From Catalinimonas alkaloidigena (lineage in GTDB: Bacteria > Bacteroidota > Bacteroidia > Cytophagales > Cyclobacteriaceae): DNA of 64,000 bases. The notes below the pieces were generated by a model. That model was not told where the DNA came from. It was given only the letters and a program-made list of their open reading frames with translations, and did not search any database. The stretch covers positions 3,911,001-3,975,000 of the forward strand of contig NZ_JAQFIL010000001.1 in NCBI RefSeq assembly GCF_029504655.1. Direction: 5' to 3'. Shown here one piece after another: positions 3,740 to 23,900 of the stretch. A program made the translations under genes and the position numbers. How positions within the stretch are numbered: position 1 is the first letter of the stretch; the number at the start of each line of letters is the position of its first letter.

Positions 3740-3747
3740 ATATTTGT

Positions 3748-4269
3748 ATGAGATTTCTACTCGTTATTTTTTTTCTTCTAATTAGTTATTGCGTTGATGC
3801 TCAATCCATAAATGAGTACAAGCAAACTCAAGATCAGATACATACAATTTACCTATACAATTTTAGCCGGTATTTTGTCTGGCCTGATACAAATTATGAT
3901 GAATTTCTGATAGGGGTCATGGGAGAGCATGATGTTTACGATGAGATTCGGAAAATGGCTGATTCTAAAACCGTTGGTGGTAAGCCTATTAAGGTTAAAG
4001 CTTATGAGAATCCAAAAGACATTGACCAGCACTGCCATATTATTTTTATACCTTATGAAAATAGCTACTGGCTTAGTGAGGTGCTGTCCATTACACAAAA
4101 TCATCCCATACTTGTAGTGAGCAGCAAACCTGGTATGGGTAAATTTGGTAGCCTACTCAATTTTGTAGCTCATCAGGGTAAAATAACATTTGAAATCAAT
4201 GAAGAAGCAATTAGAAATCGGCAATTAAAATTTGCTCAACAAATCAAAGCTATTGGCCGCATTCTATAA
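3748..4269 (+). CDS. YfiR-family (DUF4154) periplasmic protein
   Basis: A 173-residue exported protein with a signal peptide of about 18 residues (LLVIFFLLISYCVDAQ). The body carries the hallmarks of the YfiR/DUF4154 family: an N-terminal YLYNFSRYFVWP segment, a central IGVMGEHDVYDEI strand-helix, the KTVGGKPIKVK motif, CHIIFIPY, a serine/glycine-rich ILVVSSKPGMGKFGSLLNF segment and a basic C-terminal helix. Known of the family: YfiR is a periplasmic repressor of the diguanylate cyclase YfiN, and Bacteroidota homologues usually sit next to histidine kinases. Here it follows the TPR gene closely, and its 3' end overlaps by six bases the 3' end of the convergent Reg_prop kinase. A link between the two is plausible but not shown. 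Confidence 0.82.
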   Translation: MRFLLVIFFLLISYCVDAQSINEYKQTQDQIHTIYLYNFSRYFVWPDTNYDEFLIGVMGEHDVYDEIRKMADSKTVGGKPIKVKAYENPKDIDQHCHIIFIPYENSYWLSEVLSITQNHPILVVSSKPGMGKFGSLLNFVAHQGKITFEINEEAIRNRQLKFAQQIKAIGRIL

Positions 4270-7200: not shown

Positions 7201-7689
7201 ATAATAGATCCCTCCCCCAAAGGTACCCGCCCAAATGGCGTTATTTTCACCTTCACATAAACTAAGTACAGATGTAATTTGTCTATTGGTATTAGATGGA
7301 GAGACTAGTGTATATTGTATGTAAGATTTTTCTTTTGAAATAAACCTTAAAACCCCATAATTTTTTGTACCTATCCAGATATCCTCATCAGATGTCTCAA
7401 TCATTACCTGAACCTCAATACGGTTCAGCGGGATTCCAGTATTAGTAGAATCTACAACCGGTATAACTTCATGACCATTGTAATACACTAGACCTTGCTT
7501 AGTACCAAACCAACTATTTCCTTGCTTGTCCCTCAAAAAACAATTGACTTTTCTACTTGTAAGACTATCCTGTATAGCAGGTTTGAAGTGATCAAAACGA
7601 AAGTTTTTTTCCCATTGTTCGTTGGATTGCCCGTAAGCACTTAAACTCACGATCCAAATTAAGATGAGGATCACTTTTTTATTGATCAT
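4264..7689 (-). CDS. Giant sensor histidine kinase with Reg_prop beta-propeller and Y_Y_Y sensor domain
   Basis: Inner-membrane sensor kinase of 1141 residues, last gene of the fibre operon. A signal peptide (ILILIWIVSLSAYGQ) precedes a periplasmic region of about 700 residues. That region is made of two-component-regulator propeller repeats of the W-I-G-T-x-x-x-G-(V/I/L) type, such as IWIGTKNYGVLRF and LWIGTYGKGIYHY. A Y_Y_Y domain follows (about 730-780, YEYRLEGLDQQW), then one membrane helix (792-813) and a long coiled coil (815-905). The kinase core has His912 in RAYHDIIGPIARI, N-box KNA near 1028, DNGVGI near 1059 and GLGLYIAH near 1087. There is no receiver or AraC output domain, unlike the SusR-type hybrids, so a separate response regulator is needed. 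Its start overlaps the OmpA-like gene by 11 bases. Confidence 0.9.
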   Translation of the reverse strand: MINKKVILILIWIVSLSAYGQSNEQWEKNFRFDHFKPAIQDSLTSRKVNCFLRDKQGNSWFGTKQGLVYYNGHEVIPVVDSTNTGIPLNRIEVQVMIETSDEDIWIGTKNYGVLRFISKEKSYIQYTLVSPSNTNRQITSVLSLCEGENNAIWAGTFGGGIYYFDEQQQTFTSYQDQNDSSQMLGTSVVMDLHKDKNGMLWAATFGSGLFRIDPHYQTFKQYRATNKKGSLLTNDLFCLEEDAEGTLWIGTYGKGIYHYDRRTETFSEAFPELANEYIQDIFFNRGYIWMATQDKGVFCWNTQYPLLYNFSQSITNQFSISDNNVSQISIDEFGTLWVISAAGVDLAHSDNIYFSYLGSNPKSLINQPITAIATDRTNNIWMGTAGASMFQWIEEEKKLIKHDIGLNESEDISFSTSMISVISIDDREGVWIGTSEGKLLRWDNNKKKWKHYTLPLTFSTNESIESIYLDQKGTLWIGVLEHGLFYWNGQDDNIHSASELIPLENLVFTPKVFAENEEHLWIGTLSQGIFQWNRNTGQLTHYTKKDKGQMGLPSNQITGLSLDSQGKLYIGTFDQGVCRLDLQTKEFSQINEQSGLVSNRITSLSKTGFDKIWIATIEGVSSYNCSSGKIKNYSNQEFLNGKELVHYSETSTAEKVMLGTLNGIIQIESSTEEKPYKKPVIEITEFDSKEQQISFEPNKSVPQQVDLAYDDNAFEISYALQSFTFSEHHEYEYRLEGLDQQWKPVNHRTLASYTNLTPGTYRFYVRGRASQGEFIELMDPLVIVIHPAWYQTLLFKIIVFIAVIGVAGCAYYYRVTSVEKRNRMLETLVMERTSELTAKNKFIEKQHHNIQLQNQKLEEAKFTIQQKNDDLINLNEALEERVNQRTQELATTNEALVKTNKELDLFVYRAYHDIIGPIARIEGLGQIAAMEAGDNTGLDQYFDKLQDNCTKARTTLQKVLQIHHVRNHNIETKNINLLSLIQQIYDEVNTSYRDQVSSLSFEILCEPELYILTDQTLITLILKSFIKNALQYSSQKVDSWIRVIAEVTKLDELRISVEDNGVGIAPQVKDKVFTMFFRGHETKSSTGLGLYIAHLAAEKLAGGVAYTEDNGYTQFTFEVNYRSGSKKDLEKEKNLQNENTL

Positions 7690-10600
7690 ATGCTTGTCTT
7701 TTTGTGGTAATTTTAATGATCGTATAGGGAGCGGGTTGAAGCAACAAACCGGGGTTGATTGATAAGAGATGATCTACAGACACTTGATATTTCTCAGCAA
7801 TTTTTTCAAGATCTGGTTTTGCTTCTAATACATATATTTCTTTGGTTGGATTATAGCTTGTATTATTGCCCGATATCTTAAACTCAACCCTCCTGCTGTA
7901 TGATAAATATTTAGAGGGATCAACTTCTTCTTTTCCTCTAGGTACTATCTTTACGCTTTTTGCTGCTACACCATTTTCGATCATGGCCTGGTACACCGCT
8001 GCCCCTCTGCGTTCACTTAAAGTATAATTGTATTGCTGACTCCCAACAGAATCAGCATAGGCATGAATTTCAATGAGTACATCAGGATGCTTTTTATGAA
8101 AATCAACAACGTGACTTATGATGGGGAGGGCCTCTTTGGTGATTTGATATTTATCTGTCTGAAAGTAGATATTATCAAAGGAGGCTACAAACTGAGAGTC
8201 CTCCACCACAGTAATTTCTAAACTTTCTAAGTATAGCGAAAGTATGTCATTCAAGTTATTATTCTGGTCACCCAATAAGATTTGTTGAGACTGTCTGTAT
8301 TTTACTTTTTCAAAAGCAAAGGTACCATCTTCTTTCGTTTGGGTACTAATATTTTTGAGCTTATTGCCAAGAGAAACCTTGATGGGTTGATTTTCCAATT
8401 CATTAGTACCTACTTTGCCCCTGATATTCACGATATCCGGACTTGCCTTAAGAATTGTGTGTAGATTTATTTGCTGATGCTTCCCTTCATTTGCGATATT
8501 AACTTCTGAAAGTGCCTTCATAGCAAATTGTCGACTGTTTACCGCTTTGTTTATTGCGTTTTTTGACTCCTGAGGCAAAACCTGCCAGAAATTATTATCT
8601 TTCCCAGATTCATCAACATTTTGGTTTTGCAACGCTCTGGAGCGATAAACTACCATGAGGTAAAATTTCTTCTTATCTTCTTCCGACAAAGAATCAAGCA
8701 ATCCTGAATCTTGATGTAGTAAAATAGTCGCTGAAGCTTTTTGCTCAAACGAAATTGCGCGAGCCATACGATCTATTTGCTCCTTTCTTTCTTGAGGAAG
8801 TAACTCATATTGATGTTGTACATCATTGATTGTCGCTTCATCTGATAAAGCCAGGTGGGTGAAATATTGATACGTCAAGGCTCGTTCTAGCTTTTCTTTT
8901 TCTTCTGCAGGAAGTGTCTGCCATTGGTACAGTTCTTCTAAACTCACTGAATGATTCAGTAATTCTTGAAAATACTTGATTCCCCGTTCGCTTGATTGGT
9001 CTATCCATGCCTTCTCCTCAACAGATAACTTTTCATAGGTGTAGTTTTCGTCTAGTAGATTATCTTCGCTTTCTTGCAAAAACTCCTTGATCATCATCAG
9101 ATGAACCAGTTTTTCAATCTCCTTTTTTTCTTCCATAGGCAATTCCTCGTACCAATGGTGAATGTCTTCACTCCATGTCGGGATTTGCAGAGAGAGGTAA
9201 AATGACTTTTTATGGGCTAATAAGGCTTGTATCCCTTTTTTATCTATCGGTGAGGTGAACTTATGCTGGCTATCTAGAGCCTCGAGCCCTACATCATCAG
9301 AAATCAAAGCGTTAAAAATTTTTTCACGAACGGTTCTCTGCAACCTTTCCTTTTCCTGGCTGGGCAAAGTTGTATAAAACTTATAAGCTCCTTGTTCTTC
9401 TTCCGAAAACTGAAAATAAAGCTGACTTATCCATTTATCCCATAAGGTTTGGTTACCAAGCGCAAGCAAAACCTTTGGTTCAGGAATATATTGAAATTTG
9501 AAAATATCAAATTTTCCGCTCGTATTACCACGGTTTGAAGTGAGATAACCATTGTTTTCTCCTAACCAAAAATAGGTGTCATCTTTTGAAGAATTAATGG
9601 GTTTTCCCAAATTGAGCACTTGATTTAATGAATTATCTAAAATTTGGTACGACATAAAAATATCATAGCCTCCCCAGCTTTGATGTCCATTAGAAGCAAA
9701 GAATAATATCTTTTGTGATACATCCCAGTAGGGTGAGGTGTCCTGATAGGGTGAATTAATATCGCTCCCTAAATTTTTTGGCTGTTGCCATTTTCCATTC
9801 ACTTGCGTACACATCCATAAATCGCTTTCACCAAATCCGCCTGGCCGATTGGAGGAAAAAAATAAAGTATCTCCAGAAGCTGATAATGAAGGATGCTTAC
9901 TGAAGTAGCCTGGCATATTGATTGTCTCCGGTAAGGCCTCTGGTGTTTGCCAATGTCCGTTTTGAAAGTAACTGACATATATATGATAATCTCCCCGAGC
10001 GGTATATTTAGTTAAAAAGTACTGTGTTTGATCTGTACTGATGGCACCAGGCCCTTCATCCAGGGGAGAATTTGTTGAAGAAAAACGATGCGTGTCTGTA
10101 CTTTCATGCCATCCGTTTGAATCTAAGACAAATAGAAAATTATCACTAAAAGACTCGCCATGTTGATCATGGTACTGATTCCCTCTGCTTTCCTGGCGGG
10201 TAGAGGTTACTACTAGCATATCAGTATTAGGGTAGGGAAAAGCTGCTAAATCATGACTTTCAGAATTGATTGGAAATGGCATTTTGACCATTTCAATATC
10301 TTTGACAGGGGTAAGCGGGTTACTTTTTACTACAGATATACTCGTAAGTTCTTCTTCAGCTTTCGAAATCCAAAATTCATATTCTGGCTGTTTAAATCGC
10401 TCTACATACTGGATAAAGTATCTAAAAAAATATGCTGCCTGATCATACTGAGCAAGTGACTTATGCACTAATCCTAGATTGAGTGTTATCAGTGGATATT
10501 CGCTTTTCTCTTGTAACTTTACTCTTTGATAATGAGTTAAAGCTGATTCGTATTGAAACAGGTAACGGTAACAGTCGCCTAGATAATAATTAGCTTCCTC

Positions 10601-10792
10601 ATGCAAACTATCATAAGTGAGGGCTTTTTGGTAGAAGTTGACAGCTTCATAATATTGCCCCTGATTATACTTTTCAAAAGCAGATCTCAACAGTGCTTTC
10701 AATGGATTAGGCTTGCCCATTCCAAATGCGAAAGTGTTAAATAGAAAAAGTAGATGTATTCCTATCAGTATGGGTTTTACTTTTGTAGTCAT
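7679..10792 (-). CDS. TPR-PD40-OmpA-LysM envelope protein with a 38-residue helical repeat array
   Basis: A 1037-residue exported protein tying the cell surface to peptidoglycan. In order: signal peptide (1-24), TPR repeats (about 32-135), a PD40/WD40-like propeller (about 180-435, with DTLFFSSNRPGGFGESDLW and FFASNGHQSWGGYDIF), a helical array (about 440-765), a carboxypeptidase-regulatory-like beta domain (786-835), an OmpA peptidoglycan-binding domain (about 874-975, with NIYFQTD and LSERRGAAVY) and a C-terminal LysM (about 985-1030). The helical array repeats L-(P/S)-x-E-E/D-K at residues 476, 551, 589, 627, 665, 702 and 739, a period of 37-38. TPR-PD40-OmpA proteins are known partners of PorP/SprF in Bacteroidota; the helical array is not one I recognise. 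The start overlaps the PorP stop by three bases. Confidence 0.88.
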   Translation of the reverse strand: MTTKVKPILIGIHLLFLFNTFAFGMGKPNPLKALLRSAFEKYNQGQYYEAVNFYQKALTYDSLHEEANYYLGDCYRYLFQYESALTHYQRVKLQEKSEYPLITLNLGLVHKSLAQYDQAAYFFRYFIQYVERFKQPEYEFWISKAEEELTSISVVKSNPLTPVKDIEMVKMPFPINSESHDLAAFPYPNTDMLVVTSTRQESRGNQYHDQHGESFSDNFLFVLDSNGWHESTDTHRFSSTNSPLDEGPGAISTDQTQYFLTKYTARGDYHIYVSYFQNGHWQTPEALPETINMPGYFSKHPSLSASGDTLFFSSNRPGGFGESDLWMCTQVNGKWQQPKNLGSDINSPYQDTSPYWDVSQKILFFASNGHQSWGGYDIFMSYQILDNSLNQVLNLGKPINSSKDDTYFWLGENNGYLTSNRGNTSGKFDIFKFQYIPEPKVLLALGNQTLWDKWISQLYFQFSEEEQGAYKFYTTLPSQEKERLQRTVREKIFNALISDDVGLEALDSQHKFTSPIDKKGIQALLAHKKSFYLSLQIPTWSEDIHHWYEELPMEEKKEIEKLVHLMMIKEFLQESEDNLLDENYTYEKLSVEEKAWIDQSSERGIKYFQELLNHSVSLEELYQWQTLPAEEKEKLERALTYQYFTHLALSDEATINDVQHQYELLPQERKEQIDRMARAISFEQKASATILLHQDSGLLDSLSEEDKKKFYLMVVYRSRALQNQNVDESGKDNNFWQVLPQESKNAINKAVNSRQFAMKALSEVNIANEGKHQQINLHTILKASPDIVNIRGKVGTNELENQPIKVSLGNKLKNISTQTKEDGTFAFEKVKYRQSQQILLGDQNNNLNDILSLYLESLEITVVEDSQFVASFDNIYFQTDKYQITKEALPIISHVVDFHKKHPDVLIEIHAYADSVGSQQYNYTLSERRGAAVYQAMIENGVAAKSVKIVPRGKEEVDPSKYLSYSRRVEFKISGNNTSYNPTKEIYVLEAKPDLEKIAEKYQVSVDHLLSINPGLLLQPAPYTIIKITTKRQAYDQ

Positions 10793-11850
10793 ATAAGGGG
10801 GGTATAGCGTTTTTTAGTGAGCTGATTATGACTTTTTAGGGTATATATCAGTGATGCTTCCCATGCATAACCCGTGCTAGAGTAATTAATGGTAGGATGA
10901 TGTGAAAAGTCAGCGCTAAAAGCGAATTGCAAATTGTTGTATAAGACACCGCCAGAAACTGCAATTGCGTCATCCCAACGATACCATAAGCCACCCATCA
11001 AAATAGTCTTATGCTTCTTTCGTACAGTAGCCTGCAATACCTCATACTGAAAATATGAACCAATGCTTAGATGATAGTTTGTATCCTGCCATAGCATTAT
11101 AGTCTGGGGATGAACCTTCCAATTGTTATGTGCATAAGAGATACCTGTGTGCCATTTCAAAAGTAAGGGTAAGCGATTTTCCAAGTTTGTAAAAGAAATA
11201 TCAGGACGGTTCATATGGGCTATTGAAATTCCACCTAACCACTGCCAGGGACTTAACAACTGGTTCTTAAAAGCATTGTATGACCAAACTGCTCCTGCTT
11301 CTGTGGTTACGTATACCAAACCTTGCCTCATGAGGTTTAGAGATGGTACAATATTGGGGTCATAGCCATATTCAGAGTCATACTGAGAGCCCCATTGTAA
11401 ATTATCCGGATCTATGCTCCTTTGTATCAAGCTCGTGGCTATTCCAAATGAAATTACGTGCTGTTGCTTGTAGTCTAAGGGCAAGTTATATGCGCCTGCG
11501 ATCTGAATTTCGTTAAATTTTAACCAGGCTTTGGCACCTGCTACCTCACGAGAAAACTTCAAACCCAATCCGCCCTTAATACTTCTTCTCGGGTATTTTT
11601 GTATGATTGGATAAGTGAGCGATGCCGAATAAATAGGATACGCGTTAGAAAAAGTATTCCATTGGGAACGATGATGAGTAGCAATCAATGGATGGGTGGA
11701 GCTCCCAATCAGGGCGGGATTCACATTAATTGGCAGGACAAAATACTGACTGACCGGCACTTGTTGGGCATAGCAAGTACCAAAACTGATGAACAAAATC
11801 AGCAGGCATAATTTTATTGTGTCATTTCCTACGTATAAAGTACAAAACAT
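10789..11850 (-). CDS. PorP/SprF-family type IX secretion membrane protein
   Basis: Outer-membrane barrel of the PorP/SprF family, 353 residues from the chosen start. A longer frame opens at 11964, but the ATG at 11848-11850 is preferred. It lies two bases after the upstream gene's stop and is followed by a clear signal peptide (IKLCLLILFISFGTCYAQ). The longer form would bury that signal peptide and overlap the neighbour by over 100 bases. The family N-terminus is visible: QYFVLPINVNPALIGS, then HHRSQWNTF. Known of the family: SprF is needed for export and surface attachment of one partner carrying a type-B C-terminal domain, such as SprB. The gene just upstream encodes a protein with such a domain, so this barrel is probably its dedicated partner. 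Confidence 0.88.
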   Translation of the reverse strand: MFCTLYVGNDTIKLCLLILFISFGTCYAQQVPVSQYFVLPINVNPALIGSSTHPLIATHHRSQWNTFSNAYPIYSASLTYPIIQKYPRRSIKGGLGLKFSREVAGAKAWLKFNEIQIAGAYNLPLDYKQQHVISFGIATSLIQRSIDPDNLQWGSQYDSEYGYDPNIVPSLNLMRQGLVYVTTEAGAVWSYNAFKNQLLSPWQWLGGISIAHMNRPDISFTNLENRLPLLLKWHTGISYAHNNWKVHPQTIMLWQDTNYHLSIGSYFQYEVLQATVRKKHKTILMGGLWYRWDDAIAVSGGVLYNNLQFAFSADFSHHPTINYSSTGYAWEASLIYTLKSHNQLTKKRYTPLI

Positions 11851-11852
11851 TG

Positions 11853-12977
11853 CTAAAAATTCACAATTATATCCGAACGCTGAAAGGTAGTTCCAGACAG
11901 AAATTTTCCGGAAATGATATACCTGTATTTTGTAATTGAATGAGATAAGTTGCTCTGTTTCCAACCATTGTCCATAGCATCAAGGAGTGAGGCAGTTTGA
12001 TAAACCCATCTTCCCCACTGGTCCTGTATACCAAAATGAAAGTTTTCAAAGGATATATATTTGCCGTAGACTTTGATGCCTTGATCTTCGATATTGGTTG
12101 CTGAAGTAGAATAGGCATTTGGGACAAACACTCTTTCTAATGCACTAACTTCAGAAAATCCAACGCTAAGCCAGGGAAGTGTTGTTTTTTTGCTGCTGGT
12201 AATTGTGAAACGACTTTCTTCATTTGTCAGGTATTGAACCCCCAAAGTGTTTAGCTTGCCATCAACTTCTTGCAGCGCCATTACTTCCAGCGCATCCTGA
12301 TAATATAAATAATCCTGTTTATTGCTTTGAAAATTCAGGCTAAGGGTTGACCCAAGATAAGTTCCTGATAAAACATTTTGTCTCCAATACGGAATGTTTT
12401 TCTGTGGTAGGTAAGTTACTCCTAAAGTAGTATTCTCTCCACTCACATTATGTAATGTCAGTGGTGCATATTGATCAACTGAACCCACCGGGAAAAACTT
12501 TTCTCCCTCACCTTGATGATATAAATAGCCTTGAATGTATGAAATAGCACTGCTTTGATGAATAGTGGCATTCTCCTGAAGAATAAGTTTGCTTTTTTCA
12601 GGCACCCTCAACATTCCTCTATTTAAGGATAAATGATCCTGAATATAGAAAGTACCTTTTATATTTTTTTTACCTCCATATATTACTTCCACCCCACCGA
12701 GAGTAGTTGATGTACTGCTGATGATTTGGTCTTCACCTTTCAGAACTAAAGTGCCCTCTGATGCTTCATATTCTGAATAGTTGAGTATATCTTCTTCCGC
12801 TACTAAAGTACCCTGATGAATTAGCTTTCCATGGTTAATTACAGATTTGTTTGTTGTAACAAAGGATGTAACACTTTGTGAAAGCACTCCTTTTTGTACA
12901 ACTATTTGACCGGTAGCGAAGTTGATGTAGACCAAATTCATTATTAAAATCAAATACAACGTATTTATTTTCCACAT
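11853..12977 (-). CDS. Secreted protein with diverged gliding-motility-type (type B) C-terminal domain
   Basis: A 374-residue exported protein. The signal peptide ends near NFATGQ. The middle is rich in beta-strand and G/N turns (VINHGKLIHQGTL, GGVEVIYGGKKNIKG), a beta-helix or filament-like stretch. The last 90 residues follow the gliding-associated C-terminal (CHU_C) pattern: VFVPNAYS, then FHFGIQDQWGRWVYQT, then a W-containing turn, KYRYIISGKF and a terminal strand. The usual SPNGDGVND calcium-like loop after the FxPN motif is replaced by an unrelated loop, so this is a diverged member. It lies 41 bases downstream of the fibre-like gene and two bases upstream of PorP/SprF. I infer a T9SS substrate that PorP anchors or exports and that may hold the fibre protein. 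Confidence 0.7.
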   Translation of the reverse strand: MWKINTLYLILIMNLVYINFATGQIVVQKGVLSQSVTSFVTTNKSVINHGKLIHQGTLVAEEDILNYSEYEASEGTLVLKGEDQIISSTSTTLGGVEVIYGGKKNIKGTFYIQDHLSLNRGMLRVPEKSKLILQENATIHQSSAISYIQGYLYHQGEGEKFFPVGSVDQYAPLTLHNVSGENTTLGVTYLPQKNIPYWRQNVLSGTYLGSTLSLNFQSNKQDYLYYQDALEVMALQEVDGKLNTLGVQYLTNEESRFTITSSKKTTLPWLSVGFSEVSALERVFVPNAYSTSATNIEDQGIKVYGKYISFENFHFGIQDQWGRWVYQTASLLDAMDNGWKQSNLSHSITKYRYIISGKFLSGTTFQRSDIIVNF

Positions 12978-13018
12978 AAAATGTAGTTAAATCACTTTTA
13001 CTGAATTATTAAAAGTTA

Positions 13019-15433
13019 TTAATCACCACTGATTAGTACATTCCAAGAAGAACCATTCCATCTCTTTATACTCCCATTTCCTGAACTATCCAGCCACAAC
13101 ATTCCGTTTTGGCGATCAGCTAATGCAGGTTGGGAACCAATGTTGAGTTGTCCGTTCATTCGCTTTCCATTTTCCCCTCCCCCTCCCAGACCGCTAATTT
13201 CCGCCCAATTGTCTGAATCAGTTCCCGTTTTGCGCCAATATCTATCTTCATTATGCCTGTAGTATAAATCTCCTACCTGTCCCCCACTAAAACTGCCACT
13301 TTCAGGATTAATAGTACCCGTGAACCAACGTGCTTCATCATCACTTCTTTCATTTGAAGGCACCCATGCAGATCCATTCCAGCCAAGTACCTGGCCATTA
13401 GCTGGGTTGGGTGCATTGACTGCCTTACCTTGTAGCTTGGATATGTTTGCATTTCCAATAGCGTCCAGTGAAATGTCGCCTGAAATACTTCTGGAAGCCA
13501 CTGTACTACCCTGTCCGATAAGTAGTTCTCCACTATTGGTATTGATGGTCTCCAGGCTTCCATCTACTGCTTGAATCAAACCCGTGCCCGCTACATTGCT
13601 GTTGATCTTGTCACGCGTAACCGCATCGTCTGAGATTTTGGTTTCCGTTATGGCGTTGTTTGCCAGTTTAGCATTTGTGACAGCTCCATCAGCAATTTTG
13701 TTAGTGGTCACTACGGTGTTTTTTAATGTAAATGTACCATCAGATTGTAGTACCAGATCGCCGGTTATACTGACAGAAGCAACTGTTGTCCCATTTCCTA
13801 CTAATATTTGTGCATCAGCACTTGCATCAAAAGCAATCGCCTTATCCGCGTTGCTCCCTACCCATATATTTCCTTCAGTAAGCGTTGTAGCACCTACCAG
13901 ACCACCAAGGTTTACTGTGTTTCCGTTGGAAATTTCTAAGGAGGTTCCACTTGTAGTTAAAGTTTGTGCATCTGTATTATCCAGATAAGAGCTAAGGTCA
14001 ATCGTAGAGGCAGATGCGTTATTGGTTATTTTTAGTTCGTCATTGATTAGTGACAGGTCTTGTATCTCATTTCCAGAATCTGAGTCAGCATCGTTCACAT
14101 TGTCAGTTGCAGAAACAGTGAAATTTGGATAAGTACCGCTAACGCTCACCGCGCCACTGCCAGTGATACTGACAGTCTGGTCGGGGGCTGTATTAATAAT
14201 TTCATCACTACCGTTAATATCTATACCTGAGCCGGCTGTGTAGCTATTTCCCTGAAGACTGCTCAAGTCTACTATGTTTCCGCCAGAAATTTCTAGCTGG
14301 CTACCACTTAATGACAATGTTTGTGCATCTGTATTATCTAAATATGGTAATAGGTTGATGGCAGTTGCCGAAGGGTTATTAGTGATTTTTAACTCGTTGC
14401 TACCTAGAGTCAAGTCTTGAATCTCATTGGTAGGGTTAGCATCAGCGTCATTCAAATCAGCTACAGACACTTGATAATCAGATCCGCTTTTAGTGACTAT
14501 TACCGCTCCGCTTCCGGTTATATCAAACGGAATATCAGGTGCCGTATTAATAATTTCATTCTTACTGTTGATTCCGATACCACTACCTGCCTTATACTTA
14601 TATTTACTGAAATTTACTGTATTACCGTTCGTGATGCTAAGTTCATCTCCCACCAAATCAAGCGCTTGTTTATCTGTATTGACACCAGATAAATCTACAC
14701 TCTCCCCGTTTTCTAATGTTAATGTGTTATTGGAAATGGATAGCTTTAGGTCTTCTTTTTTTACCAGGGAACTGCCTAGCTCAATGGTATTACCACCGCT
14801 GATACTTAAGGATAAAGTTGTTTCATCATACATTAACGACGGAGCGGATAGTTGCTGAAACTGAGTCATTACAAAATTACGAGTAGCAACTTCCTGAGCA
14901 TCTAAGGGGTCCGCTACGTTGGAGATTCGTTTACCTCCAGCATCCGTGCCTAAAGATAAGACTGATGACAAATTTTGTAATTCATTTGTAGAATCCCTAT
15001 CACCAGTATTGTGTATAATATTCTCTTCAAATTTTATTCCTTTTCCTGGTTTTAATTGTGTTATTTCAGGTGATATATCCCCGTTTGATGGGTCAAGTTT
15101 GTGCCAGCTTTCTTCCCACCAGTAAAAAAACTTACCTTCATCTTCTACAAAGATCAGCAAGCCATTATCAGCAGCAGACAATTTTTCGCTTAATGCATTT
15201 GCTTCTATTTTGAGTAAACGGGGTACTAATAAACCTTGATCTCTTTGTGTGGAAACTAACTCAAGTACAGCATTAGGGTTCGGGTTTTCAGTACCCATCC
15301 CTACAATAGTCTGACTTTTAGCGTTTTTCGTCATTAAAAGCAGTAGAGTGATAATGCTTATCCATAAAATATACTTGTCTTTCCAGACGCCTTCCCTAAA
15401 TATGTGTAATAATAGATAAGTAGAACTTGTCAT
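13019..15433 (-). CDS. Tail-fibre-like surface repeat protein, copy A
   Basis: An 804-residue exported protein, first gene of the operon. A hydrophobic segment (about 24-37) ending NAKSQ acts as signal peptide. It is followed by the Bacteroidota surface-protein opening IVGMGTENPNPNAVLEL and LLVPRLLKIEA. The body is beta-rich, with repeated units containing NEIQDL, ELKITNN, SYLDNTDAQTL, SLEISNGNTVNL and GSGIDINGSDEIINTAPD, then a phage-fibre-like stretch (GAVTNAKLANNAI and TETKISDDAVTRDKI). The first 690 residues are identical to copy B; the last 114 are unique and contain GDLYYRHNEDRYWRK and a C-terminal RWNGSSWNVLI. No catalytic motif is present. The structure suggests a long fibrous stalk with an exchangeable tip, like phage tail fibres and trimeric adhesins. 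The role in adhesion is inferred. Confidence 0.75.
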   Translation of the reverse strand: MTSSTYLLLHIFREGVWKDKYILWISIITLLLLMTKNAKSQTIVGMGTENPNPNAVLELVSTQRDQGLLVPRLLKIEANALSEKLSAADNGLLIFVEDEGKFFYWWEESWHKLDPSNGDISPEITQLKPGKGIKFEENIIHNTGDRDSTNELQNLSSVLSLGTDAGGKRISNVADPLDAQEVATRNFVMTQFQQLSAPSLMYDETTLSLSISGGNTIELGSSLVKKEDLKLSISNNTLTLENGESVDLSGVNTDKQALDLVGDELSITNGNTVNFSKYKYKAGSGIGINSKNEIINTAPDIPFDITGSGAVIVTKSGSDYQVSVADLNDADANPTNEIQDLTLGSNELKITNNPSATAINLLPYLDNTDAQTLSLSGSQLEISGGNIVDLSSLQGNSYTAGSGIDINGSDEIINTAPDQTVSITGSGAVSVSGTYPNFTVSATDNVNDADSDSGNEIQDLSLINDELKITNNASASTIDLSSYLDNTDAQTLTTSGTSLEISNGNTVNLGGLVGATTLTEGNIWVGSNADKAIAFDASADAQILVGNGTTVASVSITGDLVLQSDGTFTLKNTVVTTNKIADGAVTNAKLANNAITETKISDDAVTRDKINSNVAGTGLIQAVDGSLETINTNSGELLIGQGSTVASRSISGDISLDAIGNANISKLQGKAVNAPNPANGQVLGWNGSAWVPSNERSDDEARWFTGTINPESGSFSGGQVGDLYYRHNEDRYWRKTGTDSDNWAEISGLGGGGENGKRMNGQLNIGSQPALADRQNGMLWLDSSGNGSIKRWNGSSWNVLISGD

Positions 15434-16204
15434 AGAAATTCAGGATTCAATTATTCCTAAATATCACTGATATAGTCTCCTTATTAAATCTCAGTTAGCC
15501 TAAAATAGCACTTTGCAATATTTCATTGAGTTTTTTCTCTTTTTTAGATTAATATCTGCTAAGAATATTTGTATATACTGGTATATTCTGAGCACTGAAA
15601 AAATCAAAGTTTGAAGCGACTTATTTATATTAGTCTACTTATATCTCTCTTCTTATTACTGTGTATTTTTATTTCCAAAAAAATACCCAAAGATTCATTC
15701 ACAATTCAACTCGCTTCAGGACCTACTACTTTCATGATACCCTGCATAATACGCCAGTGACCGGGGAAGGTACACACAAAAGGATATTCCCCTGGAGTAT
15801 CCGGGGCCATAAAAGTAAGCTCAATGGTTTGTTCGGGATCTACCAGAGGTGTACTGAAAAGCACTTCGGATAGCTCAGGTATATAATTTTTCTCCGCCCC
15901 CTGAGGATCGGTTGCCAGCTGATCTGCTGCGGCACCAACGGTTTCCAGTGTCCCCGGTTGTACAATTAACAGGTTGTGCTGCATAAAGTCAGGGTTTTCA
16001 AATACAATTTTCACCGGCTTTCCTGCTTTTACCACAAACTCACTCAAGTCGTATTTCATTTCGTTCTTCACAGTCCTGATCTGTACTACCTGTGTCTTTT
16101 CCTCGGTAGCGTCTGTCAGCATTGTATTCATCTCACCAGCGGCAGGTTTGTTCCAGTAGTTTTCCATCAGAGCATCTGCTAGGATTTTACCTGCAAATGG
16201 GGAA
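13363..16204. repeat. 2842-bp direct repeat, copy A
   Basis: Direct repeat of 16766-19607 at a constant offset of 3403 bases. It covers the last 499 bases of an azurin-domain reading frame, the 272-base intergenic promoter region and the first 690 codons of the fibre gene. I found six differences between copies: 14266, 14317 and 15284 in the fibre gene (all synonymous), and 15634, 15635 and 15655 upstream of it. Identity stops abruptly at both ends: 13362 differs from 16765, and 16205 differs from 19608. The sharp edges and near identity point to a recent duplication or gene conversion. Confidence 0.95.
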
Positions 16205-16389
16205 TTTCCGTGGTAGATACGCTGATGGACTATACCTCCATGAATAAACACCTTTTCATTGACTGAAATTATAGGTTCATTTCTAACCACCATCACTTAT
16301 ACACCTCGAGTATTTTCCTGTGCAAAAAGCGAATTACACATTAGGTATATGCCAATGTAAAGTTGAAACACTATTATTTTTTTCTTCAT
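15706..16389 (-). pseudogene. Chimeric pseudogene: signal peptide and CHU_C-partner-like N-terminus fused to azurin domain, premature stop
   Basis: An ATG at 16389 overlaps by one base the stop of fibre copy B. It opens a signal peptide (IIVFQLYIGIYLMCNSLFAQ) that runs to an in-frame TAA at 16299-16297. The same frame then continues through NEKVFIHGGIVHQRIYHG, which aligns with NKSVINHGKLIHQGTL of the gene at 11853-12977. At 16204 it passes, still in frame, into the azurin-like C-terminus copied from the gene at 19109. Copper ligands are kept: His in MQHNLL and Cys/His/Met in VCTFPGHWRIM. A GTG/ATG at 16296-16291 could restart translation of 196 residues, but without a signal peptide. I read it as a recombination by-product; a functional restart is possible but unlikely. 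Confidence 0.75.
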
Positions 16390-16765
16390 TATAAAGTCTG
16401 CCATTTAATCGTTCCACTACTCACATCCAAGAGTCTGTAATAGAGTTTTTCTTCATCGCGACTATAATAAAAATCTCCTATTGCACCTATATTATCGCCG
16501 TCCACGGGTTTAACATCACCTAAATAAAGTACAGGGGTACGATAACTATCGGCTTTAGCTCCTATATTAATAGGTGATGAAGGGGCTGTATTGTATCCAC
16601 CCAAAGAGGTCCAGTTTCCGCTCACTTTGTGATAAACTATATTATCATCAGTATCATAATAAAAGTCACCATTCTCAGCGCCAAGTGGATACAAAAGTGT
16701 GGGGGTATTTGTATCTGCATACCATTGTTTACTACCGAACGAAAAAAGCGCAAGCGTCTGAGGCT
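16205..16765. other. Unique 561-bp segment between the two long repeats
   Basis: This stretch separates the two 2842-bp copies and has no near-identical partner. It holds the C-terminal tail of fibre copy B (16389-16765) and the first 62 codons of a paralogue of the CHU_C-domain gene (16205-16389). Position for position it corresponds to about 12802-13362 in copy A, which holds the copy A tail and the start of the intact CHU_C-domain gene. The fibre tail and the neighbour's start therefore diverge together, as one exchangeable block. Confidence 0.8.
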
Positions 16766-18836
16766 CCCATGCAGATCCATTCCAGCCAAGTACCTGGCCA
16801 TTAGCTGGGTTGGGTGCATTGACTGCCTTACCTTGTAGCTTGGATATGTTTGCATTTCCAATAGCGTCCAGTGAAATGTCGCCTGAAATACTTCTGGAAG
16901 CCACTGTACTACCCTGTCCGATAAGTAGTTCTCCACTATTGGTATTGATGGTCTCCAGGCTTCCATCTACTGCTTGAATCAAACCCGTGCCCGCTACATT
17001 GCTGTTGATCTTGTCACGCGTAACCGCATCGTCTGAGATTTTGGTTTCCGTTATGGCGTTGTTTGCCAGTTTAGCATTTGTGACAGCTCCATCAGCAATT
17101 TTGTTAGTGGTCACTACGGTGTTTTTTAATGTAAATGTACCATCAGATTGTAGTACCAGATCGCCGGTTATACTGACAGAAGCAACTGTTGTCCCATTTC
17201 CTACTAATATTTGTGCATCAGCACTTGCATCAAAAGCAATCGCCTTATCCGCGTTGCTCCCTACCCATATATTTCCTTCAGTAAGCGTTGTAGCACCTAC
17301 CAGACCACCAAGGTTTACTGTGTTTCCGTTGGAAATTTCTAAGGAGGTTCCACTTGTAGTTAAAGTTTGTGCATCTGTATTATCCAGATAAGAGCTAAGG
17401 TCAATCGTAGAGGCAGATGCGTTATTGGTTATTTTTAGTTCGTCATTGATTAGTGACAGGTCTTGTATCTCATTTCCAGAATCTGAGTCAGCATCGTTCA
17501 CATTGTCAGTTGCAGAAACAGTGAAATTTGGATAAGTACCGCTAACGCTCACCGCGCCACTGCCAGTGATACTGACAGTCTGGTCGGGGGCTGTATTAAT
17601 AATTTCATCACTACCGTTAATATCTATACCTGAGCCGGCTGTGTAGCTATTTCCCTGAAGACTGCTCAGGTCTACTATGTTTCCGCCAGAAATTTCTAGC
17701 TGGCTACCACTTAATGACAGTGTTTGTGCATCTGTATTATCTAAATATGGTAATAGGTTGATGGCAGTTGCCGAAGGGTTATTAGTGATTTTTAACTCGT
17801 TGCTACCTAGAGTCAAGTCTTGAATCTCATTGGTAGGGTTAGCATCAGCGTCATTCAAATCAGCTACAGACACTTGATAATCAGATCCGCTTTTAGTGAC
17901 TATTACCGCTCCGCTTCCGGTTATATCAAACGGAATATCAGGTGCCGTATTAATAATTTCATTCTTACTGTTGATTCCGATACCACTACCTGCCTTATAC
18001 TTATATTTACTGAAATTTACTGTATTACCGTTCGTGATGCTAAGTTCATCTCCCACCAAATCAAGCGCTTGTTTATCTGTATTGACACCAGATAAATCTA
18101 CACTCTCCCCGTTTTCTAATGTTAATGTGTTATTGGAAATGGATAGCTTTAGGTCTTCTTTTTTTACCAGGGAACTGCCTAGCTCAATGGTATTACCACC
18201 GCTGATACTTAAGGATAAAGTTGTTTCATCATACATTAACGACGGAGCGGATAGTTGCTGAAACTGAGTCATTACAAAATTACGAGTAGCAACTTCCTGA
18301 GCATCTAAGGGGTCCGCTACGTTGGAGATTCGTTTACCTCCAGCATCCGTGCCTAAAGATAAGACTGATGACAAATTTTGTAATTCATTTGTAGAATCCC
18401 TATCACCAGTATTGTGTATAATATTCTCTTCAAATTTTATTCCTTTTCCTGGTTTTAATTGTGTTATTTCAGGTGATATATCCCCGTTTGATGGGTCAAG
18501 TTTGTGCCAGCTTTCTTCCCACCAGTAAAAAAACTTACCTTCATCTTCTACAAAGATCAGCAAGCCATTATCAGCAGCAGACAATTTTTCGCTTAATGCA
18601 TTTGCTTCTATTTTGAGTAAACGGGGTACTAATAAACCTTGATCTCTTTGTGTGGAAACTAACTCAAGTACAGCATTAGGGTTCGGATTTTCAGTACCCA
18701 TCCCTACAATAGTCTGACTTTTAGCGTTTTTCGTCATTAAAAGCAGTAGAGTGATAATGCTTATCCATAAAATATACTTGTCTTTCCAGACGCCTTCCCT
18801 AAATATGTGTAATAATAGATAAGTAGAACTTGTCAT
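16389..18836 (-). CDS. Tail-fibre-like surface repeat protein, copy B
   Basis: An 815-residue paralogue of the protein at 13019-15433, with the same signal peptide, stalk repeats and promoter region. The first 690 residues are identical; the three codon differences seen are silent. The C-terminal 125 residues differ completely and carry two GDFYY units (NGDFYYDTDDNIVYHK, GDFYYSRDEEKLYY), a motif also recognisable as GDLYYRHNEDRYW in copy A. The tails are therefore related in fold but strongly diverged. It ends overlapping a pseudogene rather than an intact CHU_C-domain/PorP set. If the protein is exported through that partner set, it probably relies on the copy A operon. Alternatively it may be a reservoir for tip switching by recombination through the long shared stalk. 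Confidence 0.75.
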   Translation of the reverse strand: MTSSTYLLLHIFREGVWKDKYILWISIITLLLLMTKNAKSQTIVGMGTENPNPNAVLELVSTQRDQGLLVPRLLKIEANALSEKLSAADNGLLIFVEDEGKFFYWWEESWHKLDPSNGDISPEITQLKPGKGIKFEENIIHNTGDRDSTNELQNLSSVLSLGTDAGGKRISNVADPLDAQEVATRNFVMTQFQQLSAPSLMYDETTLSLSISGGNTIELGSSLVKKEDLKLSISNNTLTLENGESVDLSGVNTDKQALDLVGDELSITNGNTVNFSKYKYKAGSGIGINSKNEIINTAPDIPFDITGSGAVIVTKSGSDYQVSVADLNDADANPTNEIQDLTLGSNELKITNNPSATAINLLPYLDNTDAQTLSLSGSQLEISGGNIVDLSSLQGNSYTAGSGIDINGSDEIINTAPDQTVSITGSGAVSVSGTYPNFTVSATDNVNDADSDSGNEIQDLSLINDELKITNNASASTIDLSSYLDNTDAQTLTTSGTSLEISNGNTVNLGGLVGATTLTEGNIWVGSNADKAIAFDASADAQILVGNGTTVASVSITGDLVLQSDGTFTLKNTVVTTNKIADGAVTNAKLANNAITETKISDDAVTRDKINSNVAGTGLIQAVDGSLETINTNSGELLIGQGSTVASRSISGDISLDAIGNANISKLQGKAVNAPNPANGQVLGWNGSAWEPQTLALFSFGSKQWYADTNTPTLLYPLGAENGDFYYDTDDNIVYHKVSGNWTSLGGYNTAPSSPINIGAKADSYRTPVLYLGDVKPVDGDNIGAIGDFYYSRDEEKLYYRLLDVSSGTIKWQTL

Positions 18837-19607
18837 AGAAATTCAGGATTCAATTATTCCTAAATATCACTGATATAGTCTCCTTATTAAATCTCAGTTA
18901 GCCTAAAATAGCACTTTGCAATATTTCATTGAGTTTTTTCTCTTTTTTAGATTAATATCTGCTAAGAATATTTGTATATACTGGTATATTCTGAGCACTG
19001 AAAAAATCAAAGTTTGAAGCGACTTATTTATATTAGCTTACTTATATCTCTCTTCTTGTTACTGTGTATTTTTATTTCCAAAAAAATACCCAAAGATTCA
19101 TTCACAATTCAACTCGCTTCAGGACCTACTACTTTCATGATACCCTGCATAATACGCCAGTGACCGGGGAAGGTACACACAAAAGGATATTCCCCTGGAG
19201 TATCCGGGGCCATAAAAGTAAGCTCAATGGTTTGTTCGGGATCTACCAGAGGTGTACTGAAAAGCACTTCGGATAGCTCAGGTATATAATTTTTCTCCGC
19301 CCCCTGAGGATCGGTTGCCAGCTGATCTGCTGCGGCACCAACGGTTTCCAGTGTCCCCGGTTGTACAATTAACAGGTTGTGCTGCATAAAGTCAGGGTTT
19401 TCAAATACAATTTTCACCGGCTTTCCTGCTTTTACCACAAACTCACTCAAGTCGTATTTCATTTCGTTCTTCACAGTCCTGATCTGTACTACCTGTGTCT
19501 TTTCCTCGGTAGCGTCTGTCAGCATTGTATTCATCTCACCAGCGGCAGGTTTGTTCCAGTAGTTTTCCATCAGAGCATCTGCTAGGATTTTACCTGCAAA
19601 TGGGGAA
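16766..19607. repeat. 2842-bp direct repeat, copy B
   Basis: Partner of 13363-16204. In this copy the azurin segment is continuous with its parent gene (ThuA/PVC-dehydrogenase gene at 19109-22649). For that end, copy B is thus the original arrangement and copy A the derived one. For the other end, the intact downstream operon belongs to copy A. Confidence 0.95.
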
Positions 19608-20509
19608 CTACCCGAGTTGAACTCTCTTTCTACCTGATACTTCCAGTTACCTGCCAGTGAAGTTTTGCTATTGCCCACCTGAATAAACATCTGCTCAGGC
19701 TCACCGCTGAAACCACCCCACCCACGGTAGTCTTCCAGCTTTACTACCACCAGATTGTTACCATGCTTTAATACATCAGCAGGAATAGGATATATTCTTT
19801 CAGTCTGGTAATCGTCCTTTGTCCCCCCTACCCTGAATCCATTCACCCAGACTTCATCGGTTTCATCAATTGGACCTAATGATATGGTGCCTGCCCTTCC
19901 TGCTGAATGTGCAGGCAGATTTATAATCTTCCTAAACCAAACGATACCATCTATGTCAAGGCCCGAGCGTTCCAGAAACTCCGGCAACTTCATCAGTTTC
20001 CAGTCATCATCTGCGTAACCCATATTTTCCCTTGAAGGCATAGCTGCTTTTTGAGCCTGCAACTCTTCATAACGGGGATTAGCAGCCAGATAGGCTGACA
20101 TGAAACCATCCCTATGGCGACTGCCTGCCAGGTAAGCAGCTTTAGCAAGCCAGGCATCATTCTGTACATTTTCATCCTGAGTTAAGGCAAAAAGCTTCTC
20201 CCCTATTCCTTTTGAAGTTGGCATATCCGCTAAAGCTAAAACGGTAGCCAAACGAGTATGAGGGTCTGGATCTTCAGTAATTTGTGAACGCAATATTGCC
20301 TGATTGGCCCAGGGTGTGGAAGGTAAAACTTGTACCGCCGCCTTTCTTACTCCGGCAGCAGGATGATTGAGAGCATCTACAGCCACCCGGTAAGCTTCTT
20401 CATTTACATTATCTTCAAGTACTCCCAGCCCGTGCATTGTCCACAGTGCGTGTAAGGCGGCATTACCAAGACCCATATCATCGGTTTCTTTTGTTTTCAA
20501 CCAACTCAA
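19109..20509 (-). CDS. C-terminal part of split ThuA/PVC-dehydrogenase protein: HEAT, jelly-roll and azurin domains
   Basis: Second half of a gene split by a frameshift; 466 codons from a TTG at 20509 that is probably not a real start. It contains HEAT-like helices (about 10-140, ALHALWTMHGLGVLEDN, HPAAGVRKAAVQVLP), a galactose-binding-like jelly roll (about 175-300, DEVWVNGFRVGG, NNLVVVKLEDYRGWGGFSG) and a plastocyanin/azurin domain (about 335-466). The type 1 copper ligands are His377, Cys445, His450 and Met454 in the order expected of azurin. Such C-terminal copper domains are known on PVC-type membrane-bound dehydrogenases, where they are thought to pass electrons. Without the N-terminal half it has no signal peptide. 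Its last 499 bases are duplicated at 15706-16204. Confidence 0.8.
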   Translation of the reverse strand: MSWLKTKETDDMGLGNAALHALWTMHGLGVLEDNVNEEAYRVAVDALNHPAAGVRKAAVQVLPSTPWANQAILRSQITEDPDPHTRLATVLALADMPTSKGIGEKLFALTQDENVQNDAWLAKAAYLAGSRHRDGFMSAYLAANPRYEELQAQKAAMPSRENMGYADDDWKLMKLPEFLERSGLDIDGIVWFRKIINLPAHSAGRAGTISLGPIDETDEVWVNGFRVGGTKDDYQTERIYPIPADVLKHGNNLVVVKLEDYRGWGGFSGEPEQMFIQVGNSKTSLAGNWKYQVEREFNSGSSPFAGKILADALMENYWNKPAAGEMNTMLTDATEEKTQVVQIRTVKNEMKYDLSEFVVKAGKPVKIVFENPDFMQHNLLIVQPGTLETVGAAADQLATDPQGAEKNYIPELSEVLFSTPLVDPEQTIELTFMAPDTPGEYPFVCTFPGHWRIMQGIMKVVGPEAS

Positions 20510-22649
20510 GGAGTTCAGGCAAAATATCGGTTTCGCCTCTTTCTACCAGTAAGCGTTGAGCAGTGAGTCTCCAGAACATATTGTCATCATTTAGTGCTTC
20601 CACCAAGCCTTCAGGATCTTCCATACTCAGGCTCATATGCTCATCAGGTTCAGCTCCTTTGTAGACAATACGCCAGATACGGCCATGCTGACGGTCACGT
20701 AGGGGGTTCACGTACGCGTTACCTTCGCCAGTTTCTGCTTCATACCCACCTCGCTCCAGTGTAGGGGTTGGGTTATGCTGTACAATAAAGTTATACCAGT
20801 CAGCCACCCAAACCGCTCCGTCAGGTCCTACCCTGGCTTCCACCGGAGACACCCATTCGTCGGCACTTGCCAATAGGTTGCCGCCATTTTTTTCAACAAA
20901 GCCCGCTCCTTCTTTTTCTAGAATGGCAGTGTGCACTACACCTCCGGTTGGCTCACAAACGAATGCAATACGGTTCCAGTAGTTTTTGGGGAAATTTCGG
21001 GCGGTATAAAAATTGTGACCGGCTGCAGCGGTAAACCCACCCCATACATCTACCTGACGTACATTAGGCGTGAGCGTCTGCATGATATAGTGACCATCTA
21101 TTTTGGTACTACCGCTTACTGGCAGTCCGTCTACATTTTCATAGTAAGCATTGGGAATACCCATGAAAACACTATGCGTGTTGTTGGCAGTTGAAGCAAA
21201 AACATCAAAAGTCTCCGTGAAGCCTAGCCCCCAGGTGTTATTACTGGTACGGGTCAGAAACTCAAAGCGGTTCCCCGCCGGTTCACTCGCATCCGGTTTC
21301 AGTCGGTAGATACCCTGACCGAACTGATGATTTTTTCCGCCAATAGTACCTTCAAAACCAGAGTAACCTACTACGCCCCAAATCCAGTTGTCTATACCAT
21401 ACTTAAGGTTAGAGGGTCCGGCATGGGTGTCAAAGGTACCCCAGCCATTTACCAGAACTTTTCGCTCATCGGCCTTATCATCACCGTCAGTATCTTTGAG
21501 AAAGAGAAAGTCAGGTGCCTGAGAGACCACTACGCCACCATTGACAAAAGTCAGACTGGTGGGAATATTCAGTTGGTCAGCAAAAATGGTGAACTTATCC
21601 GCTTTTCCATCGCCATCAGTGTCTTCGCAAATTTTGATTCTGTCATCGCCCACTCCTGAATCATTTCTAACGGTGTTTGGGTAATCAACAGTTTCTATCA
21701 CCCACAGCCTACCTTTTTCATCCCAGTCCATGGCGATTGGGTTGATGATATCCGGTTCTGAGGCAAATAATTCCAAGCTGAAATCCGGTGGAACCTGTAT
21801 GAGCTTTTTAGATTCTTCAGGAGAAAGAGGAAGCTGGTACTTAGGTGCAAGATCTCTTTTCTCGTAGTTGGGTATGCTGTCTTTATCAACATATTCAAGC
21901 TTAGGAATATCCCGCACATATGCCTGCCACTGCTCAATTGCCTGATCACTCACTGCCCATAATACGCCCTGTTCAATCATCTTGTGAAACCCGGGCTTAC
22001 TCCAGGCTTTTTCATCATGACCTGAGGCTGTATAAAATACTCTTCCTTCACCCTGCTCCCGCACCCAGGTCCAGGGCTCATGATGATCGCCTTCTACTCT
22101 TTTCATCAATACAGTACGATCCTCATTATGCTTGTGATGGACATAGGTCTCATCCCATGCGGAAAACTCTTCTACACCTTCCATAGCCGGATGCTCGGGC
22201 TGAATGATATCCGCTACAAATGTAGCCGTATCATGGCTATGAAACTGGGCACCTACCAGGTCTATGTATGCTTCTGAATTCTGGAAACAGAAGCTGGCAC
22301 TATGGATAGGAATAAAGCCTTTTCCTCCTTCCACGAAATCTATTAAAGCTTTTTCCTGGGAAGGCGTAATGGTTTCATGGTTAGCATAAATCATCAGCCC
22401 ATCATATTTGCTGAGCGTTTCAGCATTCAGGTCTGATTGATTTTCTGTATAAGTGAGGTTGATACCTTTCATGAAGAGTGGTGCAGCCAGCATAGGCATC
22501 AATATCTCAGAATTATGATGCTCACTATCGTGACCCAGGAAGAGAATTTGTATGGGTTTGGGACCAGTTTCGGCTTGCTGCTGTTCAGATTTACAGCCCA
22601 GTATCAACAAACACAGTAGGTAGCAGTACCAATTCCTCGCAATTTTCAT
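20478..22649 (-). CDS. N-terminal part of split lipoprotein: ThuA domain and PVC-type dehydrogenase propeller
   Basis: A 723-residue frame with a lipoprotein signal (LLILGC, Cys19). A ThuA-like glutamine-amidotransferase fold follows (about 32-245, ILFLGHDSEHHN, GFIPIHSASFCF). A PVC-type membrane-bound dehydrogenase propeller (about 285-650) has calcium-loop-like DTDGDGKADKF and KDTDGDDKADE motifs and RVGPDGAVWVADWYN. The first HEAT repeat then begins and is interrupted. One extra base in the T run at 20494-20497 (four A on the coding strand) moves the frame. With three A the protein reads ELVENKETDDMGLG and continues into 20509-19109, for a full product of about 1180 residues. Known of the family: periplasmic sugar or aldose oxidation linked to ThuA-type keto-sugar metabolism. 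Either a real mutation or an assembly error. Confidence 0.85.
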   Translation of the reverse strand: MKIARNWYCYLLCLLILGCKSEQQQAETGPKPIQILFLGHDSEHHNSEILMPMLAAPLFMKGINLTYTENQSDLNAETLSKYDGLMIYANHETITPSQEKALIDFVEGGKGFIPIHSASFCFQNSEAYIDLVGAQFHSHDTATFVADIIQPEHPAMEGVEEFSAWDETYVHHKHNEDRTVLMKRVEGDHHEPWTWVREQGEGRVFYTASGHDEKAWSKPGFHKMIEQGVLWAVSDQAIEQWQAYVRDIPKLEYVDKDSIPNYEKRDLAPKYQLPLSPEESKKLIQVPPDFSLELFASEPDIINPIAMDWDEKGRLWVIETVDYPNTVRNDSGVGDDRIKICEDTDGDGKADKFTIFADQLNIPTSLTFVNGGVVVSQAPDFLFLKDTDGDDKADERKVLVNGWGTFDTHAGPSNLKYGIDNWIWGVVGYSGFEGTIGGKNHQFGQGIYRLKPDASEPAGNRFEFLTRTSNNTWGLGFTETFDVFASTANNTHSVFMGIPNAYYENVDGLPVSGSTKIDGHYIMQTLTPNVRQVDVWGGFTAAAGHNFYTARNFPKNYWNRIAFVCEPTGGVVHTAILEKEGAGFVEKNGGNLLASADEWVSPVEARVGPDGAVWVADWYNFIVQHNPTPTLERGGYEAETGEGNAYVNPLRDRQHGRIWRIVYKGAEPDEHMSLSMEDPEGLVEALNDDNMFWRLTAQRLLVERGETDILPELLELVENKRNR

Positions 22650-22945
22650 GATTTTGTAGGTTGTTTATTGCTAAAGTCATTATTTTAATAAATAAAAACA
22701 TACAGTATTTTACCCTATATCTGCACTATTTTATCCCAATTGATAAAGAATACATGCATATCATGATAATTTAGTTTTACCTTTATATATCCGCTTCAAT
22801 TTTACATACCAAACAGACCTTAGAAAGACATTCATTGCATTTAAGTATTACTGCTCAATTCAGAAAAGACTTTATCCTATTCTCTTTTAACATTTGGGTT
22901 TCAATGGTTATATTGGGAAGGCATACCATTTAAGTTAATGCTTGA

Positions 22946-23242: not shown

Positions 23243-23266
23243 CCTGATAGTCAAAAAACGATAGCT

Positions 23267-23842: not shown

Positions 23843-23878
23843 AAAAAATTGCCGGAGAGATTTATCCAGCAATTTTTT
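23843..23878 (-). terminator. Rho-independent terminator after the Gfo/Idh operon
   Basis: A 10-bp perfect stem, AAAAAATTGC with GCAATTTTTT, and a 16-base loop lies 22 bases beyond the stop of the oxidoreductase gene. On the minus strand the stem ends in a T run. Confidence 0.7.
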
Positions 23879-23900
23879 CACTATAAAAACCAAATCTTTT

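Follow-up and report, generated by a model that had tools for sequence, protein, structure and literature searches.

Operons of the type IX secretion system (T9SS) that combine a type B substrate with PorP and PorE are known as anchoring complexes, and the cargo that they display is mostly open. A PorE-PorP-type B C-terminal domain (CTD) complex has been described in Porphyromonas gingivalis (PG1035) (PMC9143113). For Flavobacterium johnsoniae, five operons with a PorE homologue, a type B substrate and a SprF-like gene were reported and a static complex was suggested (PMC12618676); both statements follow the available parts of these sources. The locus described here, from the genome of Catalinimonas alkaloidigena (G000; 7.92 Mb, three contigs), appears to link such an operon to long fibres with swappable caps. 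It was analysed in a window of 64 000 nucleotides (C1:3911001-3975000), and coordinates are window positions unless a locus is given otherwise. Two tandem fibre genes, A on the operon side and B upstream of it, encode identical first 690 residues (the stalk) and different C-terminal ends (tips, or caps, A and B). The pair includes a duplicated segment of 2842 bp.

As in the PorE-PorP-type B operons, an anchor-type gene of a type B family is followed by a PorP/SprF gene and then by a PorE-like gene with TPR, propeller and OmpA domains (PMC9143113 and PMC12618676, same parts). Unlike in these operons, a long fibre gene comes first in C. alkaloidigena and is duplicated with a second cap, and the anchor-type protein has no CHU_C match. 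By analogy, the fibre may be displayed on a PorE-PorP-type B base.

The fibres resemble phage tail fibres and tailspikes in their repetitive shaft and in C-terminal modules similar to trimerisation folds. Weak matches to Tail_spike_N and Phage_T7_tail, below the cut-offs, were found in the proteins P0002 and P0003. Unlike phage tail fibres, the C. alkaloidigena fibres sit in a chromosomal T9SS operon. Among the neighbouring genes up to 31926, ten proteins gave no match at E 0.001 to the PHROGs families for head, tail or packaging; five had no match of any kind at this threshold and the rest matched regulators, a sigma factor and unknown families. The Pfam names of the neighbours were metabolic and regulatory, with a transposase and T9SS components. 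Rhs loci have a conserved core with main and orphan tips, and the fibre locus shares with them the conserved core, the alternative C-terminal ends and the tandem arrangement (PMC3967940, available part). It differs from Rhs in that both copies keep the full core and start, no toxin-type match was found in Pfam or PHROGs, and tip B cannot reach the operon side through a crossover. Antigenic-variation cassettes draw on silent donors for their variable ends; none were found in this genome. No description of this fibre layout was found within a limited literature collection.

The duplicated segment and its junction

Base-by-base comparison at an offset of 3403 gave two direct repeats (Table 1) with six mismatches, at 14266, 14317, 15284, 15634, 15635 and 15655 in the operon-side copy, a number that is uncertain if the assembly was polished with short reads. 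The identity is 99.8% over 2842 bp, far beyond chance. Three mismatches lie in the fibre frame and are all silent (codons 390, 373 and 50; L/L, L/L and N/N). The remaining three fall within the 272 bases separating the cupredoxin from the fibre. A whole-genome DNA search placed the repeat at these two sites only. On the present assembly the duplication is real, and it is recent. The initial annotation had reported the length, the six differences, the three silent coding changes and the 690 common codons, all of which were borne out by the alignment. Its account of the copied content was right for the presumed promoter region, the signal-peptide-like start and the stalk, and incomplete at one end: the unit also takes in roughly 165 codons from the 3' end of the cupredoxin-domain gene upstream. 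A truncated cupredoxin copy therefore lies between the fibres. A transposase gene (DDE_Tnp_1) is present at 27146-28213, about 7.5 kb from the repeat and not flanking it.

The 561 bases between the copies matched nothing else in the genome beyond 18 and 33 bases. The start codon of the spacer overlaps the stop codon of fibre B; a signal-peptide-like segment (by eye) and an anchor-type start follow, with one stop after 30 codons. The best match of the spacer was the start of the anchor-type gene of the congener G001 (score 48; 0 of 500 shuffles as good). Against the anchor-type gene of C. alkaloidigena itself the score was 42 (6 of 500 shuffles as good), and matches to those of G147, G197, G026 and G120 were weak (43, 36, 43 and 84 of 500 shuffles, respectively). 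The end of the duplicated unit therefore falls within a second anchor-type gene, and the join leads into the middle of the cupredoxin gene. The upstream copy ends in tip B and a cut-off anchor-type start, and the operon-side copy in tip A and an intact anchor-type gene.

The two tails had been called completely different except for a GD(L/F)YY motif. The ends do differ; the resemblance goes further than the motif, as each carries a pair of GD-YY...W modules (at residues 721/777 for tip A and 723/787 for tip B) and the tips match as profiles (hhalign probability 93.5%, E 2e-7, with shallow alignments of 7 and 3 sequences). The pair score was 29.5, compared with a maximum of 23.0 among 300 shuffles. 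In the predicted structure of tip B, the first module may resemble collagen XV/XVIII trimerisation domains, the fold of a 54-residue module that has also been reported N-terminally in a phage K1 lyase (PMC8822698, available part). Foldseek returned 29 matches of this model at E 0.001 to collagen-like and tail proteins, with TM-scores by query of 0.27-0.42. Neither tip had a Pfam match at E 10 and the best PHROGs match was at E 0.4; neither PADLOC nor a toxin library was searched. Each tip matched the genome once, with no further tip copies, and the stalk DNA is present in two copies only. A distant fibre paralogue (39% in the N-terminus) was found at C1:680352.

Tips and stalks in other genomes

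Two congeners were compared, and the locus is present in one of them. G001 carries one fibre of 683 aa with tip B, with the same upstream genes before it and the same operon after it; tip B is therefore probably the ancestral tip of this locus. In the other congener, G002, only a paralogous operon was found among the matches. In G001, G147, G197, G120 and G026 the operon has a single fibre, whose end is tip B or B-like. Tip B was detected in 6 of 295 family genomes and tip A in 3, G000 being counted in both and one weak match (G302, E 6e-4) in the latter. Across the order, tip A was found in 2 of 390 genomes, G000 and one partial match. In the protein collection, tip A has a single relative besides itself, in Roseihalotalea indica (P0002), a member of the Cytophagales, and tip B has four.

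Tip A also sits on other stalks, in R. indica and in another genus (G026). Identity among its three sequences (G000, G026 and R. indica) is 50-63%, among the eight tip B sequences 52-82% (64% between G000 and G001), and between tip A and tip B or B-like ends 21-40%. The tip tree gave a tip A clade at 100/100 and grouped tip B of G000 with G001 at 81/90, which is not strong. In the tree of the stalk ends (last 110 residues), G001, G120, G026 and the tip A-bearing P0002 were placed together (96/99), with both G000 stalks outside. The two trees disagree, and on this comparison the histories of stalk and tip therefore differ. The tip is better kept than the stalk between tip B of G000 and G001 (64 vs 55-56%) and between tip A of G000 and P0002 (63 vs 51-52%), but not between G147 and G197 (tips 59%, N-termini 63%). 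In the tree of the anchor-type gene, G000 was grouped with P0008 (98/98), not with the congener. Joint travel of the tip and the anchor gene was considered and is unproven: the anchor-type gene of G000 groups with P0008 and not clearly with that of R. indica (P0013).

In G026, a tip A end and a B-like end (L068 and L069, contigs 14 and 12) are cut by contig edges and take up the first 415-418 bases. Both start 23 codons before the end of a WNGxxWxP motif and neither is followed by the anchor operon. In G197 (L093, 9627-10246), about 620 bases without a long frame separate the fibre from the anchor-type gene; the other genomes have almost none.

Twelve loci in which a fibre gene immediately precedes an anchor-type gene and PorP were read (Pfam confirms PorP in ten; in G033 and G025 it was recognised by eye). 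A single fibre was found in eight (G001, G147, G197, G120, G026, G040, G017 and G013) and a tandem pair in four (G000, G036, G033 and G025), which is not a frequency because G036, G033 and G025 were chosen for having several matches. Stalk identity within the pairs was 58% in G036, 55% in G033 and 32% in G025, over 426, 533 and 598 aligned positions. Between the paired fibres, the final 120 residues gave no match at E 1 in G036 and G025, and E 0.15 over 22 residues in G033. Both frames are open in G036 and G033. The ends include C1q domains, which pass the cut-off in G033 and just miss it in G036; G033 also has a phage-depolymerase-like end (below the cut-off) and G025 an S74 chaperone end (over the cut-off). 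C1q matches at E 0.001 came from 8 of the 295 family genomes, six of them over the cut-off, the fibre loci being read for G036 and G033 only. In G033 (L102, C64:14000-30000) and G025 (L103, C2:326000-345000), two fibre-anchor-PorP sets stand in a row, one with the tandem pair and the other with a single fibre.

As judged from these loci, duplication with different caps is part of a recurring pattern in the family, and the other genomes show older stages of it. A conserved stalk with exchangeable ends, as proposed in the initial annotation, is upheld by end families on different stalks in other genera, by the disagreement of the trees and by the older tandem pairs of three genomes.

Two other regions, L105 (G038) and L106 (G030), contained no fibre-anchor-PorP set, and a group of 31 loci did not enter the comparison. 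L106 (753-4996, G030:C265) holds adjoining frames of 661 and 676 aa that are 68% identical in DNA over 2.1 kb and differ at the C-terminal end. In the paralogous operons L066 (G002), L067 (G000) and L071 (G001), the fibre comes after the PorE-like gene; L067 (G000:C1:672000-690000, 3485-10293) is a second operon of the same kind in C. alkaloidigena, with a 653-aa fibre.

Origin of the pair and competing explanations

The locus is best read as the birth of a second fibre and not as a switch: a surface-fibre gene of a T9SS operon would have been duplicated recently and its cap replaced (probability about 0.6). Tip B would be the old tip of the locus. A related strain or species would have supplied the tip A allele, together with its downstream anchor gene, through recombination within the stalk; a partly illegitimate join, from the spacer into the cupredoxin, would have preserved the two alleles as the tandem pair. 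This reading is supported by the anchor-type gene, which groups with P0008, and by the spacer stub, which fits the congener G001 best. By analogy, the products would be trimeric fibres that a PorE-PorP-type B base anchors to the cell surface, their ends acting as trimerisation or head modules. With the same stalk and different caps, one cell could show two specificities on one base. The pair would be open to loss, since a crossover between the repeats removes tip B, and incoming DNA could still supply a third tip.

Several results weigh against this reading. The duplication rests on one assembly. G002 has no match to either tip. The PorP, PorE-like and kinase proteins of G000 are about equally close to those of G001 and G147 (54/53, 45/46 and 51/46%), and import is unproven. 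Synteny with G001 is not shown beyond the kinase, two position-paired genes there being 15 and 21% identical. That near-identical stalks broke the G026 assembly at the contig edges stays a guess, because the first bases of the two contigs differ from each other. Profile searches of the fibres gave no T9SS sorting domain, and the route of surface export is thus not given by the sequence. The anchor-type protein of G000 has no PF13585 (CHU_C) match at E 0.1, and those of G001 and G147 have none at E 1.

A frequent or programmed switch, in which recombination in the common stalk changes the tip expressed from the operon, is very improbable. Long near-identical direct repeats with different ends would suit it, and Rhs loci gain new ends by recombination (PMC3967940, available part). 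However, each tip is followed by a different sequence, and a crossover between direct repeats only deletes or amplifies the 3403-bp unit with tip B; tip A keeps the adjoining anchor gene in each product. The swapping of tips in the operon that had been proposed therefore does not follow. Each copy also has its own upstream region, so both fibres could be transcribed without switching, and no inverted repeats of at least 40 bases were found in 10000-24000. The comparison with antigenic-variation loci is not supported either: the genome has no further tip copies and no additional stalk DNA, and the tip families are conserved across genera.

Fibre B may already be a relic, a view to which we give limited weight: the duplication would be neutral, tip B would have been left without its anchor gene, and fibre A would be the sole working fibre. 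The truncated anchor-type gene with a stop after fibre B favours it, as does the position of fibre A in the operon. Yet fibre B is of full length, has the same stalk residues as fibre A and could share its base, and G036 and G033 still keep two open frames in pairs whose stalks are 55-58% identical. It is improbable that the pair is an assembly artefact, produced when two strains were co-assembled or the repeat was mis-joined. A 2.8-kb repeat can mislead short reads, short-read polishing blurs copies, and an adjacent gene, in one frame in G001, is broken by a frame change here; but the contig is of 7.7 Mb in a three-contig assembly, the join lies inside two genes with a spacer otherwise unique in the genome, and older-diverged versions of the layout exist in other genomes.

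The birth of a second fibre can be put more generally, and tentatively. In this group of Bacteroidota, a static T9SS base would show trimeric fibres with exchangeable caps, new specificities arising by tandem stalk duplication with the cap replaced at a fixed WNGxxWxP boundary. If the caps are trimerisation modules, different caps would keep fibres with the same stalk from mixing and let one cell show two pure fibre types on a single base, a testable idea on how identical stalks stay apart. With one genome showing the duplication at 99.8% identity and others aged versions, the gain of a second fibre specificity could be followed.

Operon and neighbouring genes

The genes are ordered on the minus strand as follows: ThuA/DUF7133, HEAT/cupredoxin, fibre B, spacer, cupredoxin fragment, fibre A, anchor-type gene, PorP/SprF, PorE-like gene and sensor kinase (Table 1). 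By its domain content the locus is a T9SS operon. The anchor-type gene lies directly upstream of the PorP gene, the position of a type B CTD substrate. When 13 homologues of its product were scanned with PF13585, nine were over the cut-off, two below it and two without match; P0008 was also below. The PorE-like protein is so named, and not PorE, because it remained below the NCBIfam cut-offs (T9SS_PorE, 207/600 bits; CHU_0125_OmpA, 233/620 bits).

Table 1. Positions of the fibre genes, the repeats and the adjoining genes in the window.
Feature	Position	Strand	Basis
Sensor kinase: two-component regulator propeller, Y_Y_Y domain, HATPase_c; end of operon	4264..7689	-	domain search
PorE-like protein: TPR, PD40 propeller, OmpA domain	7679..10792	-	TPR_1, PD40, OmpA over Pfam cut-offs
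PorP/SprF family T9SS barrel	10789..11964	-	PF11751 E 7e-33, 114.8 bits (cut-off 22.3); TIGR03519 157.1 bits (cut-off 90.55)
Anchor-type gene, 374 aa, family with type B T9SS C-terminal domain	11853..12977	-	homologue search and PF13585 scans of homologues
Fibre A, 804 aa: stalk 1-690, tip A 691-804	15433-13019	-	reading frame list, copy comparison
Tip A coding end with stop; two GD-YY...W-type modules	13019..13362	-	sequence
Repeat copy 2 (operon-side), six mismatches vs copy 1	13363..16204	-	base comparison
Truncated cupredoxin frame: about 31 spacer residues, then copied cupredoxin C-terminus	15706..16296	-	PF00127 E 4e-10
Spacer: truncated start of second anchor-type gene, fused at 16204/16205 to cupredoxin fragment	16205..16388	-	shuffle-tested comparison
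Fibre B, 815 aa: signal-peptide-like N-terminus (by eye), repetitive stalk 1-690, tip B 691-815	18836-16389	-	reading frame list, copy comparison
Tip B coding end with stop; two GD-YY...W modules	16389..16765	-	sequence, model
Repeat copy 1 (upstream): cupredoxin 3' end, 272-base intergenic region with presumed promoter, fibre stalk	16766..19607	-	base comparison
Upstream gene: HEAT, galactose-binding-like and cupredoxin parts	19109..20509	-	domain search
Upstream gene: ThuA and DUF7133 part	20478..22649	-	domain search

The ThuA/DUF7133-HEAT-cupredoxin gene is a single frame of 1170 aa in G001. In C. alkaloidigena it is split into two frames (723 and 466 aa) that overlap at 20478-20509, by a real frame change or a sequencing error.

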